From NCBI GenBank assembly GCA_017882345.1, contig JADGPT010000010.1, positions 1 through 32,203 of the forward strand: 32,203 nucleotides of DNA. Direction: 5' to 3'. Under the pieces are notes generated by a model. It made no database searches, was not told where the DNA came from, and was given only the letters and a program-made list of their open reading frames with translations. Numbering within the stretch: position 1 is the first letter of the stretch; each line of letters opens with the position of its first letter. Positions 1-5,611 of the stretch are shown here, piece by piece. The stretch is from Bacteroidales bacterium. GTDB lineage: Bacteria; Bacteroidota; Bacteroidia; Bacteroidales; VadinHA17. The position numbers and the translations under genes were made by a program.

Positions 1-1205
1 TCAATTATATTGCCAATATCATCAACTGTTTCCTGAGTATCTTTTTTTATCTTAACTGCCAATACTCCTGTTAATCCAAATATAGGACCGTTCTGAGGCA
101 AAAACTTCATCCTTTGATCAGCTCGCATTGCCTCTTGTTTGGCAATAACTAATGCCCGTTCCTTTTCTATCTGTGTATCTGTCAGATCAATTAAATCCTG
201 TTTTTCTTTCTTATCTCCAAAAGATGCAAGCCGACCGGCTACTCTTAGATTATGTTCTGCATCAACCCTATTTAACTCAATCATTTTTGCTGTATATTGA
301 TCGAGTAACTGGGTATCTTTTGGCCTTAGTACAAGCATCGCTTGTATGAGTAAAAGTTCTTCTGCTAAATGATCTTTTTTTATTTTAATGATTCCATTTT
401 CATTTTTTTCAACTTGTGTTAATATTTTTATTTGCTCAGCCTCTGTTATGCCAGCCCTCGCCGATTCCTGTCTTAATAATAAATTTTTTGTTTCAAGATC
501 TGCTACCTTATACGATTCATTCCTTTCCTCTATTCTAAGCTCATTCATTTTATCGGCAAGTTCCTGAGCTTTTGCCACATTACGGTCAAAAAAAGCACCC
601 CATACGTTGCCGCTTGCCAACTCCTGAAAAAATGTTTTCATACCAGCAGTAAAGCGAGTCTGAAATCTTAAACCCTCCTCAGTAGCAAAAAAAGCTTCTT
701 TTAACTTACCTAACGCAACCGTGACTAATGCAATAGGAGAAACAAATCCTATCAACGATCCTGCTGCTTTTACAATTGACTGGGTATAACTGCCAACACC
801 CCGGCTATGAACTCCAATAGCCTGTTCCGCTTTACTAACTTCTCCTGTAAGTTTATTAATTCCCGGTGTCATTTTCTCCCTGACTTCTGCGGAGGCATTT
901 GCATAGTCATCTTTCAATTTAATTAATTCAGTACGCATCCTATTGAGTGAGTCCTTCGCAGATCCTTGAATTTTGTCAAGTTCCTTAATCTGCGTTTTGT
1001 GATTATCAATTTCGTTATTCAATGCAGCCAATTGTTGCAACTGTGTATTTGAAGCTAATCCACCCTGATCTTTTACAGTCTTCTGCAGGTCTTTATACTC
1101 TTTATTAAGATTCTGAAGTTGTAAAGTTAGTTTCTGAAGTTCCATTGCTTCATTTGAAACTCCATTTATAACTATTGAAAACCCAAGTACTTTTTCGTCT
1201 GCCAT
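1..1205 (-). CDS. Phage tail tape-measure-like protein (partial, runs off left edge)
   Basis: Manual reverse translation from ATG at 1205-1203 gives an open frame to the window edge (absent from the ORF track): MADEKVLGFSIVINGVSNEAMELQKLTLQLQNLNKEYKDLQKTVKDQGG...SLNRMRTELIKLKDDYANASAEVREKMTPGINKLTGEVSKAEQAIGVHSRGVGSYTQSIVKAAGSLIGFVSPIALVTVALG...; N-terminal coiled coil, then a GxY motif and hydrophobic segment as in Bacteroidetes phage tape-measure proteins. Confidence 0.7.
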   Translation of the reverse strand, partial: MADEKVLGFSIVINGVSNEAMELQKLTLQLQNLNKEYKDLQKTVKDQGGLASNTQLQQLAALNNEIDNHKTQIKELDKIQGSAKDSLNRMRTELIKLKDDYANASAEVREKMTPGINKLTGEVSKAEQAIGVHSRGVGSYTQSIVKAAGSLIGFVSPIALVTVALGKLKEAFFATEEGLRFQTRFTAGMKTFFQELASGNVWGAFFDRNVAKAQELADKMNELRIEERNESYKVADLETKNLLLRQESARAGITEAEQIKILTQVEKNENGIIKIKKDHLAEELLLIQAMLVLRPKDTQLLDQYTAKMIELNRVDAEHNLRVAGRLASFGDKKEKQDLIDLTDTQIEKERALVIAKQEAMRADQRMKFLPQNGPIFGLTGVLAVKIKKDTQETVDDIGNII

Positions 1206-1218
1206 GATATTTCGTTTT

Positions 1219-1593
1219 TTAATTAGTGCCTATTTTATTTAAAATATATTGCTTACAGTATAAGTCAAACACAATCTGAAGAAATTCCCCCACCGGAACA
1301 GTAACATTGATAGTTGTATAAATAAAGCTCGGACAGCTCTCAGGTAAACTGTCTGGAGGATTACCAAGGTTCCAAAGATCCCATGCAGGGGATTTAAGTT
1401 TTTCTTCTGCCTCATCTGCCGGGATCTCTGTCAACCAATCATTTTTAACTGCATGATATAAGTGATCAAAATAAAAAATAGTCTTATCAGGATTTAGATA
1501 CTTTATTAAATCCTTCGCCTCATCAATTCGGTTGTCTGGTAAATCTTTCATTTGTTCTATGTTTTGCAGTTTGTCATAATTCACTTTTGCCAC
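1219..1593 (-). CDS. Hypothetical protein of the mobile element
   Basis: 124-aa ORF between the tape-measure-like gene and the 234-aa ORF, overlapping the latter; no motif recognised. Confidence 0.6.
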   Translation of the reverse strand: MAKVNYDKLQNIEQMKDLPDNRIDEAKDLIKYLNPDKTIFYFDHLYHAVKNDWLTEIPADEAEEKLKSPAWDLWNLGNPPDSLPESCPSFIYTTINVTVPVGEFLQIVFDLYCKQYILNKIGTN

Positions 1594-2278
1594 TCTTCGA
1601 TCCTATATTATCAACTTCAAGTAAGGCAGTCTTTAAAATGGTTTCAATTGTATTTAATTGTTCCGTATTGAGCCTCTTTACCACTTCCTGATTCAAGATT
1701 ACCCCATTGATCTGAATGTAATTATTCTGATTTTGTATTGAAGTTTTATTTGTCAGTTGCCCATTCAAATTACCCATGACATCGAAATAAAGCCGTGCTG
1801 CTTTCATATTGCCATTTACAGCAAAGTGAAACACTTTTGCCAATACTTTAGATGTCAAAAATCGGAATTGTTCTATATGCTGCAAATAAAGGGGGTGGCT
1901 TAAATATTCTTGTAAATGTTTATGAACTGTCTGTCTGCTTAATTCTGCTTTGAGTGCAATTTCATTTTTAGAAGGCATACGATTTGATTCCTGGATTAAT
2001 GTTGAAATTGCATACGTTATTTGATTATGATTGTATTCCCAAAGTTGGTTTTTACAGTCGTCTTCTAAAAGAACCTCAATTTTATAGATAAAACTATCCC
2101 TTTCCACACCATCTAACTCGTTAAGTTTTTCCTTCATTGCATCGATTAATAACCCTAATTCCTTAGTGTTTAATCCCCGAATGTCATTAATTGCAATTTG
2201 CCTCTTTAGAGACAATAAATTATTAATCTTGGTTTTGGATTCTGTAAACTTTTGTAAACTTTTTTGTTGCTCTTTCAT
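1574..2278 (-). CDS. HTH-containing hypothetical protein of the mobile element
   Basis: 234-aa ORF; HTH-like segment MPSKNEIALKAELSRQTVHKHLQEYLSHP. Confidence 0.6.
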   Translation of the reverse strand: MKEQQKSLQKFTESKTKINNLLSLKRQIAINDIRGLNTKELGLLIDAMKEKLNELDGVERDSFIYKIEVLLEDDCKNQLWEYNHNQITYAISTLIQESNRMPSKNEIALKAELSRQTVHKHLQEYLSHPLYLQHIEQFRFLTSKVLAKVFHFAVNGNMKAARLYFDVMGNLNGQLTNKTSIQNQNNYIQINGVILNQEVVKRLNTEQLNTIETILKTALLEVDNIGSKSGKSEL

Positions 2279-2521: not shown

Positions 2522-3973
2522 TTAATTGAGACTTACAAGGTTTGTAGCAACATATTGGTTAGAGATTGTACGCTTTCTTACTTCTTCTTTCTTCTCTTCT
2601 TTCTCTTCAATAATACCTTCAATATTAGTTTTGGGTGCAATTCCTACAAATAAGGTCAACTCTTCAGTTATGATTTTGCGGACGGCCTCAACATTGTTTG
2701 TCAATACTCCTGTCATAATAGAATCATGAACCGTTACTGCAATGGTCCCTGGTAACTCTTTATAAATTCTTTTCAGGATAATATTTAACATCAGAAATGA
2801 TTCAATCCTTTGCAGGAGAATAGCAAATCTTTTAAAGTTTTGGAATTTGTCTCCCTTTTCATGTCCCCTCACTTTTGAAAATATCCGGTGAACCTTCGGG
2901 AATGACTTAATAAAAATCTGTCTGGCTTTTTTTATTTTTGGATAATCCCTTATAAATTCCTCTCTCTTTCTTTTTTCTTTTTCTGTAAGCTTGGAAATAA
3001 ATACTTCAGTATCATTTATTGGATTTCTAGGCATCCGATTCCGGGCAAATAAGATCCTTAATACCTGTACTTTTGTTTCTGTTCTGGTAAGGTGTAAACC
3101 TTCTTTTGAAAATTCAGCCATTAAAAACTCATAAAGCTGGCCTGAAGCGACCAAAAATATATATTTCTTAACGTCCTCAGTATCTTTATATTTCAAGGTT
3201 TGTAGCAACATAGCAAAAGCAGGGTTTTTTGTCATGTTTGAAACCTTCCCCGGATCAGTCAGAATAATAGTACTCAAATAAGGCTGGCTGTTCTTGATAT
3301 CGATATTTGCAAGCGGTTCACCTTTGATTCTTAGATACGGCCTCAATCCCTTTGCCATATTGGTAATATTTGAATGAAACCGGCCTGAGGTGTTATCTAC
3401 ACTATAAACTATTTCCCCGTTAATTATCCGGGTTGCTGATCCCATTACAGAATTATATTGATCTGTTTCCTCAGTATAGTTAGTTTTAATAAACTCATTG
3501 AAATTATCTGAAATAGTCAGTTGCTTCAGGTATGTTGCTTGCTCTGAATGTCCCCTAATTGATTTTGCAGCCTCTTTTCTGAATGATTCCTGAGCTTTTT
3601 CAATCCTTCTGATAAGGCTGGCATTATTAAGAGGAAATGATAAATATCTGCTTTGATATTCAGGTGAAAAATTATACTTATAACTTGTTTGTCCTTTGAT
3701 CGCAATTCCCGAACGTTCAATTATTCCAAGGTCAATAAGCCCTGATAAATATTTGTCACCCTGAGGGACCAGCTTTTTAATATAGGTAATTTGAAGCTGT
3801 GCGGGTTCACCTTCTTTTCGTACATGACAGGAAACTATTGAAATAACTTCCTTCAGGTTATCAATTGAATATCCTTTTATTCCGGGCCTCAGTAAATCTT
3901 CAATAGTGTTAAGATTCTGAAATACTTTCTCAGGGATCAATTGATAATATTTCTTCCCTGTATTCATAACCAC
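2522..3973 (-). CDS. Divergent family A (PolA/T7 RNAP-fold) polymerase-like protein
   Basis: 483 aa; SGRFHSNITNM...LRPYLRIKGEPLANIDIKNSQPYLSTII resembles PolA TGRLSS...motif A (DYSQIELR); RTETKVQVLRILFA resembles motif B RxxxK; FPKV resembles FPGV; TVHDSI resembles motif C (VHDE/VHDS). Confidence 0.65.
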   Translation of the reverse strand: MVMNTGKKYYQLIPEKVFQNLNTIEDLLRPGIKGYSIDNLKEVISIVSCHVRKEGEPAQLQITYIKKLVPQGDKYLSGLIDLGIIERSGIAIKGQTSYKYNFSPEYQSRYLSFPLNNASLIRRIEKAQESFRKEAAKSIRGHSEQATYLKQLTISDNFNEFIKTNYTEETDQYNSVMGSATRIINGEIVYSVDNTSGRFHSNITNMAKGLRPYLRIKGEPLANIDIKNSQPYLSTIILTDPGKVSNMTKNPAFAMLLQTLKYKDTEDVKKYIFLVASGQLYEFLMAEFSKEGLHLTRTETKVQVLRILFARNRMPRNPINDTEVFISKLTEKEKRKREEFIRDYPKIKKARQIFIKSFPKVHRIFSKVRGHEKGDKFQNFKRFAILLQRIESFLMLNIILKRIYKELPGTIAVTVHDSIMTGVLTNNVEAVRKIITEELTLFVGIAPKTNIEGIIEEKEEKKEEVRKRTISNQYVATNLVSLN

Positions 3974-4470
3974 GGAAATGCTAATTGTCTGGCCTCTCTG
4001 GAACTTTGGAAGTTTACGAATGCGTAATCTTTGAATACCTCCAGAGCACGGCTGTCATAAACTTTAGCAGCTGTGATCTCGTTATTGTACCTTCCTAGAT
4101 TCTTTACTTTGGCATTCTGCATAATTTGAACATGCCAGCGACCTAGATCATTATAAATGCCCTTAAATTGTGAATGAGCTGTTGGCTTTAGCTTCCTGGC
4201 ATTTCTCCGGTTTTCAGAATGACTGCAGGCCCGGAGTTTTCCCTTTCGATTATCTAGACGGTTGTGAAACCGGTGATCAACTTCAATTTCGGGATTGTCA
4301 ACTATTCCCAAAACAAGCCTGTGCATCAAAACAGTTTTGCCGTTTATCGTTGTTTGTGCATACCCCTGAGAATGTAAAGACCAGGAATACAGGCTTATTA
4401 ACTCCTGATCCTCCTGGTCAAATAGACATGGATACTCTTTGCCCTTTGATATTATAATGATCTCAGGCAT
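3964..4470 (-). CDS. HNH endonuclease with C-terminal AP2-like DNA-binding domain
   Basis: 168 aa; VLMHRLVLG...EVDHRFHNRLDNRKGKLRACSHSENRRNA is the HNH/AP2-associated core; FKGIYNDLGRWHVQIMQNAKVKNLGRYNNEITAAKVYDSRALEVFKDYAFVNF is AP2-like. Confidence 0.8.
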   Translation of the reverse strand: MPEIIIISKGKEYPCLFDQEDQELISLYSWSLHSQGYAQTTINGKTVLMHRLVLGIVDNPEIEVDHRFHNRLDNRKGKLRACSHSENRRNARKLKPTAHSQFKGIYNDLGRWHVQIMQNAKVKNLGRYNNEITAAKVYDSRALEVFKDYAFVNFQSSREARQLAFPWL

Positions 4471-4762
4471 TGCAAAGTATTTTTTCTAAATCACTCCTCC
4501 GGTACCTCTTTGCGTTTCCGATTCTTAGGGGTCTGGTAATTCCTTTTTTGTCCCAGCTCCAGAGAGTAACCAGGGAGACTTGCAATGCCTCAGCAAATTG
4601 CGCCGGAGTTAAATACTCTTCCGGATCCTTTTGATCGGGCTTTTCCTGTTTTCCTCTTTTTATACAGAGCTCAGCGAAGTCCTGCAAATCAGAAGCGCTG
4701 ACATTAATAGTCAGGTTTCCTGCTAATTCCGGGTTGGTCTTTAAGATTTCTGTGATACTCAT
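4463..4762 (-). CDS. Helix-turn-helix (excisionase/MerR-like) DNA-binding protein
   Basis: 99 aa; LTPAQFAEALQVSLVTLWSWDKKGITRPLRIGNAKRYRRSDLEKIL is an excisionase-type wHTH. Confidence 0.8.
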   Translation of the reverse strand: MSITEILKTNPELAGNLTINVSASDLQDFAELCIKRGKQEKPDQKDPEEYLTPAQFAEALQVSLVTLWSWDKKGITRPLRIGNAKRYRRSDLEKILCNA

Positions 4763-4855: not shown

Positions 4856-5611
4856 TTAATTAATCCAATCGAAACGATCTATTAAAGCCCTTTCGGGTCT
4901 GAAGGTTCTATCATCTTTTAGATCGAATTTTACTTCAAAATAAGAGCAAAAGATTTTTGCTAATTGCTGACCTGAATTAATACTGTCAATGAGTTTGTAT
5001 TTGTTCAAGAGTTTAAAGGCAAGTCCAGATAATAAATTTTTTTTGCCAATCCACTTGTATTTTTCATTATCTACTTTCTCATATTGGTCTTTTAATCTAG
5101 GATCCAGTAAGAGTGCATTCCAAAATTTAGCATCAATAAAACATTCAGGTAGAGGAGGCAGTATGTCATTTTTGGTATTGTTTTCTTTTTGTTGAGCTGG
5201 TAAGTTAATTAGTACGACTCTTTTTTGAATCCATTTTTCAATTACCGGGGAATATAACTTATCCAATCTTGAATAATGGCTTGCTAGTCTAGGAATAAGA
5301 TAGTTTAGTGTTCCAGGGCTAGGGTGACCACTATTGTTAGTGCTTATAATTAGATCCTTTAGGCATAAAAAGAATTGTTCGGGATTGCCTTTGTACTTAC
5401 TAAAATGATAATTAAGAAATTCATTTATAAATTCTACTTTATTATCAGATAGATCAATTCTTTTCCCTTTATCATCTGTCATCTCATCTTGAAATAACAT
5501 AAAAAAAAGCCAACCATTTATAGTATTTATACCATTATACTGATATTTATTTTCAGGCTTTTTGCCCTCCGGTACACTTTCAAAATATAATGAGTAATCC
5601 ATGTTACACAA
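4856..5611 (-). CDS. Hypothetical protein of the mobile element, overlapping integrase stop
   Basis: 251-aa ORF; start overlaps the 3' end of the integrase gene by 8 nt. Confidence 0.65.
   Translation of the reverse strand: MCNMDYSLYFESVPEGKKPENKYQYNGINTINGWLFFMLFQDEMTDDKGKRIDLSDNKVEFINEFLNYHFSKYKGNPEQFFLCLKDLIISTNNSGHPSPGTLNYLIPRLASHYSRLDKLYSPVIEKWIQKRVVLINLPAQQKENNTKNDILPPLPECFIDAKFWNALLLDPRLKDQYEKVDNEKYKWIGKKNLLSGLAFKLLNKYKLIDSINSGQQLAKIFCSYFEVKFDLKDDRTFRPERALIDRFDWIN

Follow-up and report, generated by a model that had tools for sequence, protein, structure and literature searches.

Predicted primase-polymerases of mobile elements

TV-Pols, described by Iyer, Abhiman and Aravind in 2008, are predicted primase-polymerases of transposons and viruses (PMC2579912). 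They consist of a minimal A-family core and are encoded in phage LMM01 and in mobile elements from Bacteroidetes, Proteobacteria and other groups, with the Bacteroidetes members already included in the original set (PMC2579912). The hallmarks of these proteins are a hairpin with an absolutely conserved arginine preceding the palm, two palm aspartates, an RxxxK signature and an aspartate in the fingers, linkage to a recombinase, a transposase or a D5-like helicase, and the lack of any fused or linked proofreading nuclease; the elements themselves carry an integrase, a resolvase or a serine recombinase (PMC2579912). Judging from its place beside transposases, MAP_030 is probably the LMM01 protein meant in that study. 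One proposal views TV-Pols as present-day models of the enzyme ancestral to Pol I and T7 RNA polymerase, endowed with both primase and polymerase activity.

In the literature surveyed, the only biochemically tested TV-Pol is the Pol I-like CcPol. Jointly with MP, this polymerase of SCCmec primes DNA de novo (PMC7581432), and on its own it is limited to primer extension (PMC10061031). CcPol retains the Pol I residues E710 and F762, the former being the residue at position +5 of motif A that blocks ribonucleotides in Escherichia coli Pol I (PMC7581432).

A polymerase gene in a small integrated element

The gene analysed here belongs to a 32,203-nucleotide stretch of a Bacteroidales genome (contig JADGPT010000010.1), the whole of which is referred to below as the window. 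It is the last in a series of five genes on the minus strand, namely, integrase, X, HTH_17, HNH and polymerase, followed by several smaller genes and the contig end:

5604..6998, minus: tyrosine integrase (Phage_integrase E 1.9e-12, Phage_int_SAM_5 E 4.9e-12)
4856..5611, minus: protein X, 251 aa, no family match
4463..4762, minus: HTH_17 or excisionase-like protein (domain match; recurs beside the polymerase elsewhere)
3964..4470, minus: HNH homing endonuclease (domain match; HNH_3 with an AP2-like C-terminus)
2522..3973, minus: predicted palm polymerase of the TV-Pol type, 483 codons
2275..2496, minus: 73-aa protein just downstream of the polymerase, no match
1574..2278, minus: 234-aa protein, weak HTH match
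1219..1593, minus: 124-aa protein, no match
3..1202, minus: tape-measure-like protein (TIGR01760 E 2.2e-5, below the cut-off; phrog_167 E 0.024)

These data support the presence of a small integrated element that carries the polymerase gene. An earlier note on this DNA placed the gene in a phage-like integrated element, together with an HNH-AP2 nuclease and an excisionase-like HTH protein; both neighbours are indeed found upstream on the same strand, joined by an integrase. The integrative part of that description stands, and the phage part rests on the weak tape-measure match, the only hint of phage structure genes in the window, in a gene that is cut by the contig end and lacks a second copy in the genome. 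No helicase gene, of the D5 type or any other, was detected in the window. The search for attachment sites yielded, at the right end, nothing but a terminator-like hairpin that resembles one found on contig C51, and the left end lies off the contig. The 73-aa protein is, by its position only, a possible candidate for an accessory subunit or partner of the polymerase.

The 483-codon open reading frame is confirmed as a real gene that starts with GTG at 3973 or with ATG at 3967, two codons in, and ends with the stop codon at 2522-2524. The gene is present in a single copy in its own genome, and the host carries a separate, ordinary PolA. The nearest relative, at locus L002, shows 64% identity over 362 codons, with dN of 0.29 and saturated synonymous sites, which indicates that the protein is maintained by strong purifying selection. 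The DNA similarity between the window and L002 is confined to the polymerase gene, the integrase, X and HTH genes being not alike.

The HNH-AP2 gene, which is inserted between the HTH_17 and polymerase genes and shares 10 bases with the start of the latter, is absent at L002. Homing endonucleases are often found within or beside conserved replication genes. Within the polymerase gene, there is a 22-nucleotide direct repeat (window positions 2533-2554 and 3191-3212, 21 of 22 bases identical) whose two copies are each translated in a different frame. At L002, 21 of the 22 positions of the inner copy are retained despite the saturation of synonymous sites there. The repeat is possibly a homing site, an iteron or a recombination site.

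Conserved motifs of the polymerase

The motifs that the earlier note had listed for the 483-aa protein without giving its strand are all present in the order described, on the minus strand: SGRFHSNITNMAKGLRPYLRIKGEPLANIDIKNSQPYLSTII at residues 196-237, RTETK at 297-301, FPKV at 358-361, LLQRIESFLML at 386-396 and AVTVHDSIMTG at 412-422. The layout of the protein can be summarised as follows:

Residues ~1-150: putative winged-helix-like N-terminal region, suggested by the sequence pattern
Residues ~185-455: palm and fingers core, delimited by profile and motif alignment
3359..3388, minus: arginine segment SGRFHSNITN, with R198 invariant (39/39 rows)
3284..3301, minus: motif A, DIKNSQ, with the predicted catalytic D225 and Q230 (gapless profile alignment to DYSQIE of PolA)
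3047..3085, minus: motif B in the fingers helix, RTETKVQVLRILF, with R297, K301, L305 (K+4) and F309 (K+8)
2798..2818, minus: LLQRIES, with Q388 conserved and E391 invariant among 39 relatives
2720..2728, minus: motif C, HDS, with the predicted catalytic D417 (aligned to HDE of Taq and PolA)

In the alignment of 39 sequences from which all conservation counts were derived, K301 and E391, like R198, are retained in every member, D225 and D417 in 38, and P359 and Q388 in 37; such retention in 37 to 39 of the 39 relatives indicates that the motifs are not due to chance. R297, the arginine of the fingers RxxxK, is found in 33 of the 39. There is no invariant aspartate in the fingers region of the members, where the near-invariant residue is Y281. 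The LLQRIE string is also present in MAP_030 of the Microcystis phage LMM01. A search for Pfam-type domains detected no exonuclease domain in the 483-aa protein, in agreement with its initial description as exonuclease-less. The single-sequence AlphaFold model of the polymerase is of low confidence (pLDDT 32).

Relationship to A-family polymerases and TV-Pols

Single-sequence searches of Pfam, PHROGs, NCBIfam, PADLOC and PDB produced no credible match for the polymerase; there was no Pfam match to the RNA_pol domain and none of the PADLOC models of anti-phage defence matched. The matches to Imm42 (E 0.05) and DUF4633 (E 0.24) were dismissed as being at chance level. When the family profile was compared with 177,635 PDB sequences, all 18 matches were to Taq-type DNA polymerase I, with the best E-value of 5.9e-5 and an alignment that spans RxxxK, FPxV, the Q of the Q-helix and HD. 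In the whole-core profile alignment, LRPYLRIKGEPLANIDIKNSQPYLS is opposite IRKAFVPGKGHVFLSADYSQIELRLM of PolA, with no gaps in motif A. In this extended alignment, the PolA motifs A, B and C are matched by D225, R297/K301 and D417, respectively, and two of these residues, D225 and K301, also coincide with their counterparts in T7 RNA polymerase. The two aspartates that had been singled out in NIDIKNSQ and VHDSI fall, in the alignment, on the catalytic carboxylates of motifs A and C. Because this extension was forced past the part aligned with confidence, matching motif A to PolA depends on the motif layout no less than on the score. Direct comparison of profiles gave E-values of 0.0014 for T7 DNA polymerase, 0.002 for PolA and 0.012 for T7 RNA polymerase; for the control profiles (integrase, methylase and serine recombinase), the values were 0.44-0.85. 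The proposed homology with palm polymerases of the A-family/T7 type is borne out by the PDB matches and the extended alignment, and the predicted fold and family are well supported.

Comparison with a set consisting of MAP_030 of LMM01 and two plasmid relatives (the LMM01/Polaromonas/Calothrix set) resulted in an E-value of 2.7e-7 and a probability of 93% (E 4.8e-6 with a larger alignment); the N-terminal region and the surroundings of motif A gave the strongest match. A second TV-Pol-like group (L082 and L085-L088) scored even better, at E 3.2e-12, a value that is partly circular because this group was itself found with the family's own profile; the LMM01 set without L083 is free of that circularity. 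By these profile comparisons, TV-Pols are the nearest named relatives of the family. The divergence of the protein that had been pointed out earlier is real, but it is neither new as a kind nor isolated, belonging with the TV-Pol family of 2008 (PMC2579912). In the phylogenetic tree, the family forms a single group (support 91/74) apart from the LMM-type, TV2 and PolA sequences; the deep order of the tree is unsafe because of long branches. The second, unnamed TV-Pol-like group displays the motifs GGRxY and E-[IVL]-D-[YF]-x-x-LH, and relatives of its member L087 were detected in 4 of 299 Bacteroidota genomes, including that of L087 itself.

Distribution and gene neighbourhoods of the family

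Homologues in other Bacteroidota integrative elements, the existence of which the earlier note had left to be sought, were found in considerable number. They are present in 24 of the 395 sampled genomes of the host's class, its own genome included, mostly as open frames of 400-550 aa, and a profile search detected additional ones in other classes of the phylum. Six records of huge phages (595-735 kb) and one Hymenobacter plasmid also contain homologues, as identified by tblastn. The sequence identity is low, 18-28% to most members; no DNA_pol_A domain above the Pfam cut-off was found in 28 members, and the sole library family that touches some of the members is phrog_4756, with the annotated function unknown. 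This Bacteroidota branch of TV-Pols is widespread and has no name in Pfam, NCBIfam or PADLOC.

A recombinase is encoded within four genes of the polymerase at 20 of 30 homologous chromosomal loci (a raw count, uncorrected for background). The order integrase, X, HTH_17, polymerase, without the HNH gene, recurs in four other genera (L037, L040, L052 and L054), and a large serine recombinase gene adjoins the polymerase at L035, L043 and L057, in keeping with what has been published on TV-Pol elements (PMC2579912). Seven of 32 loci, including a phage, a plasmid and a 3.3-kb contig, have no recognised recombinase or HTH_17 gene. The proteins that occupy the slot of protein X have no common identity, those from elsewhere being dissimilar and 214-461 aa long.

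Several neighbourhoods show additional features. Genes for cytosine-5 DNA methylases recur directly upstream of the polymerase (L035, L041, L051 and L053). At L006 (958-3015), a GIY-YIG/NUMOD1 homing endonuclease is fused to the C-terminus of the polymerase. At L034 (5848-8291), on a phage record of 595 kb, a separate DNA_pol_A gene (E 1.2e-19) comes immediately after the homologue, an arrangement that suggests a primase plus a replicase. At L049 (11767-14242), the genes after the homologue encode a protein that weakly matches DNAG_N, a P-loop protein and then an integrase.

Sugar-selecting position and predicted function

The identification of phenylalanine rather than tyrosine at the K+8 position of motif B (Phe309), and of HDS in place of HDE in motif C, had been put forward in the earlier note as the features that leave the choice between DNA and RNA synthesis undecided by eye. 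Both residues are as described, and the K+8 position is occupied by Phe in 24 and by Tyr in 11 of the 39 members, but the more telling position is +5 of motif A. Here the family has Gln in 36 of the 39 members (Q230 in the window protein) and His in three; the equivalent residue of the other TV-Pols examined is likewise His or Gln, whereas PolA and T7 DNA polymerase have Glu and T7 RNA polymerase has Gly. The branch differs, then, at the very position that distinguishes DNA from RNA synthesis, and with Q230 in place of the ribonucleotide-excluding Glu of Pol I, the window polymerase may have a relaxed choice of sugar and accept rNTPs in priming.

The most plausible interpretation, to which we assign a probability of about 65%, is that the protein is a TV-Pol-type palm polymerase that starts and copies the DNA of its small integrated element. 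The integrase and the HTH_17 protein would excise the element from the chromosome, and the polymerase, a minimal core without exonucleases, would bind the single-stranded DNA of the element via its winged-helix-like N-terminal region, make primers de novo and then copy the excised circle, so that the element would not be lost at division and would be able to move on. In the predicted active site, D225 and D417 would hold two metal ions, R198, R297 and K301 would hold the template and the incoming nucleotide, and Q230 would allow rNTPs to be accepted during priming. A role in element replication is likely; the polymerase and priming activities are predictions. Given that no helicase gene lies in the window, replication would need a host helicase or genes past the contig end. 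Against this role, the only proven primase activity is that of CcPol-MP, an enzyme that retains the steric-gate Glu and depends on a partner, and the seven loci devoid of a recognised recombinase or HTH_17 gene also count against it. More tentatively, the branch with the Gln/His gate might be a self-sufficient primase-replicase built on the A-family fold. It would synthesise primers of RNA, or of RNA and DNA mixed, and elongate them with dNTPs; its users would be minimal integrate-and-replicate elements of Bacteroidota and, for the priming step, some huge phages.

Of the alternatives, a polymerase that only extends primers, as a replicase or gap filler, with priming left to the host DnaG or another protein, is unlikely, though the most probable of them. 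Such an enzyme would behave like CcPol alone (PMC10061031), and its case is helped by the residue at K+4, which is Leu305 in the window protein but Phe in 19 and Tyr in four of the 39 members, comparable to F762 of Pol I, and by the fact that no partner protein was identified. It is, however, hard to square with the loss of the steric-gate Glu in all 39 members, with the published displacement arguments that tie TV-Pols to priming (PMC2579912), and with the huge-phage locus L034, where the adjoining DNA_pol_A fits a division of labour with the homologue as the primase. Transcription of the element by the protein, acting as a single-subunit RNA polymerase of the T7 type, is in our view quite improbable: the protein and T7 RNA polymerase share HDS in motif C and the lack of Glu in motif A, whereas the profile score is the weakest among the polymerases tested, a 483-aa protein leaves little room for the promoter-binding parts of an 883-aa enzyme, and position +5 of motif A is Gln or His, not Gly. 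Identity with T7 RNA polymerase itself was rejected on length and profile score. The least probable option, with only a very slim chance, is that the polymerase has degenerated and now plays a DNA-binding or structural role, as might be surmised from the strong divergence of the family; R198, D225, K301 and D417 are nevertheless retained in 38-39 of the 39 members, and dN is far below dS.

Comparison with known systems

The polymerase gene can serve as a marker for small integrative elements of this common type, and given that the branch is compact and has no Pol I steric gate, a single purified protein could be used to test ribonucleotide use by the ancestral type. With T7 RNA polymerase, the protein has in common HDS in motif C and the lack of Glu at motif A +5, but differs in size (483 against 883 aa) and in the weak profile match. 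Its motifs A, B and C, as well as the glutamine of the Q-helix, can be aligned with those of PolA and Taq, but it has no exonuclease domains and no Pfam DNA_pol_A match, and the steric-gate Glu is replaced. CcPol, which was counted among the TV-Pols in 2008 and works as a primase, is likewise a mobile-element A-family polymerase core without exonucleases; compared with its E710 and F762, however, the window protein has Gln230 and Leu305, and no MP-like partner was identified at the window locus.

The closest resemblance is to the TV-Pols, with which the protein shares a minimal palm core of 400-600 aa without proofreading domains, the conserved arginine (R198, in a predicted hairpin), the two palm aspartates and RxxxK, a mobile-element setting with a recombinase and, among those examined, Gln or His at motif A +5. 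Unlike the TV-Pols that are accompanied by a D5-type helicase, it has none in the window, and the family differs from other TV-Pols in forming its own Bacteroidota-centred tree group with the motif A signature DIxNSQP. The kind of protein is already known as TV-Pol; the novelty lies in a Bacteroidota branch that is widespread, has no name as yet and is unusual at the position that selects the sugar.
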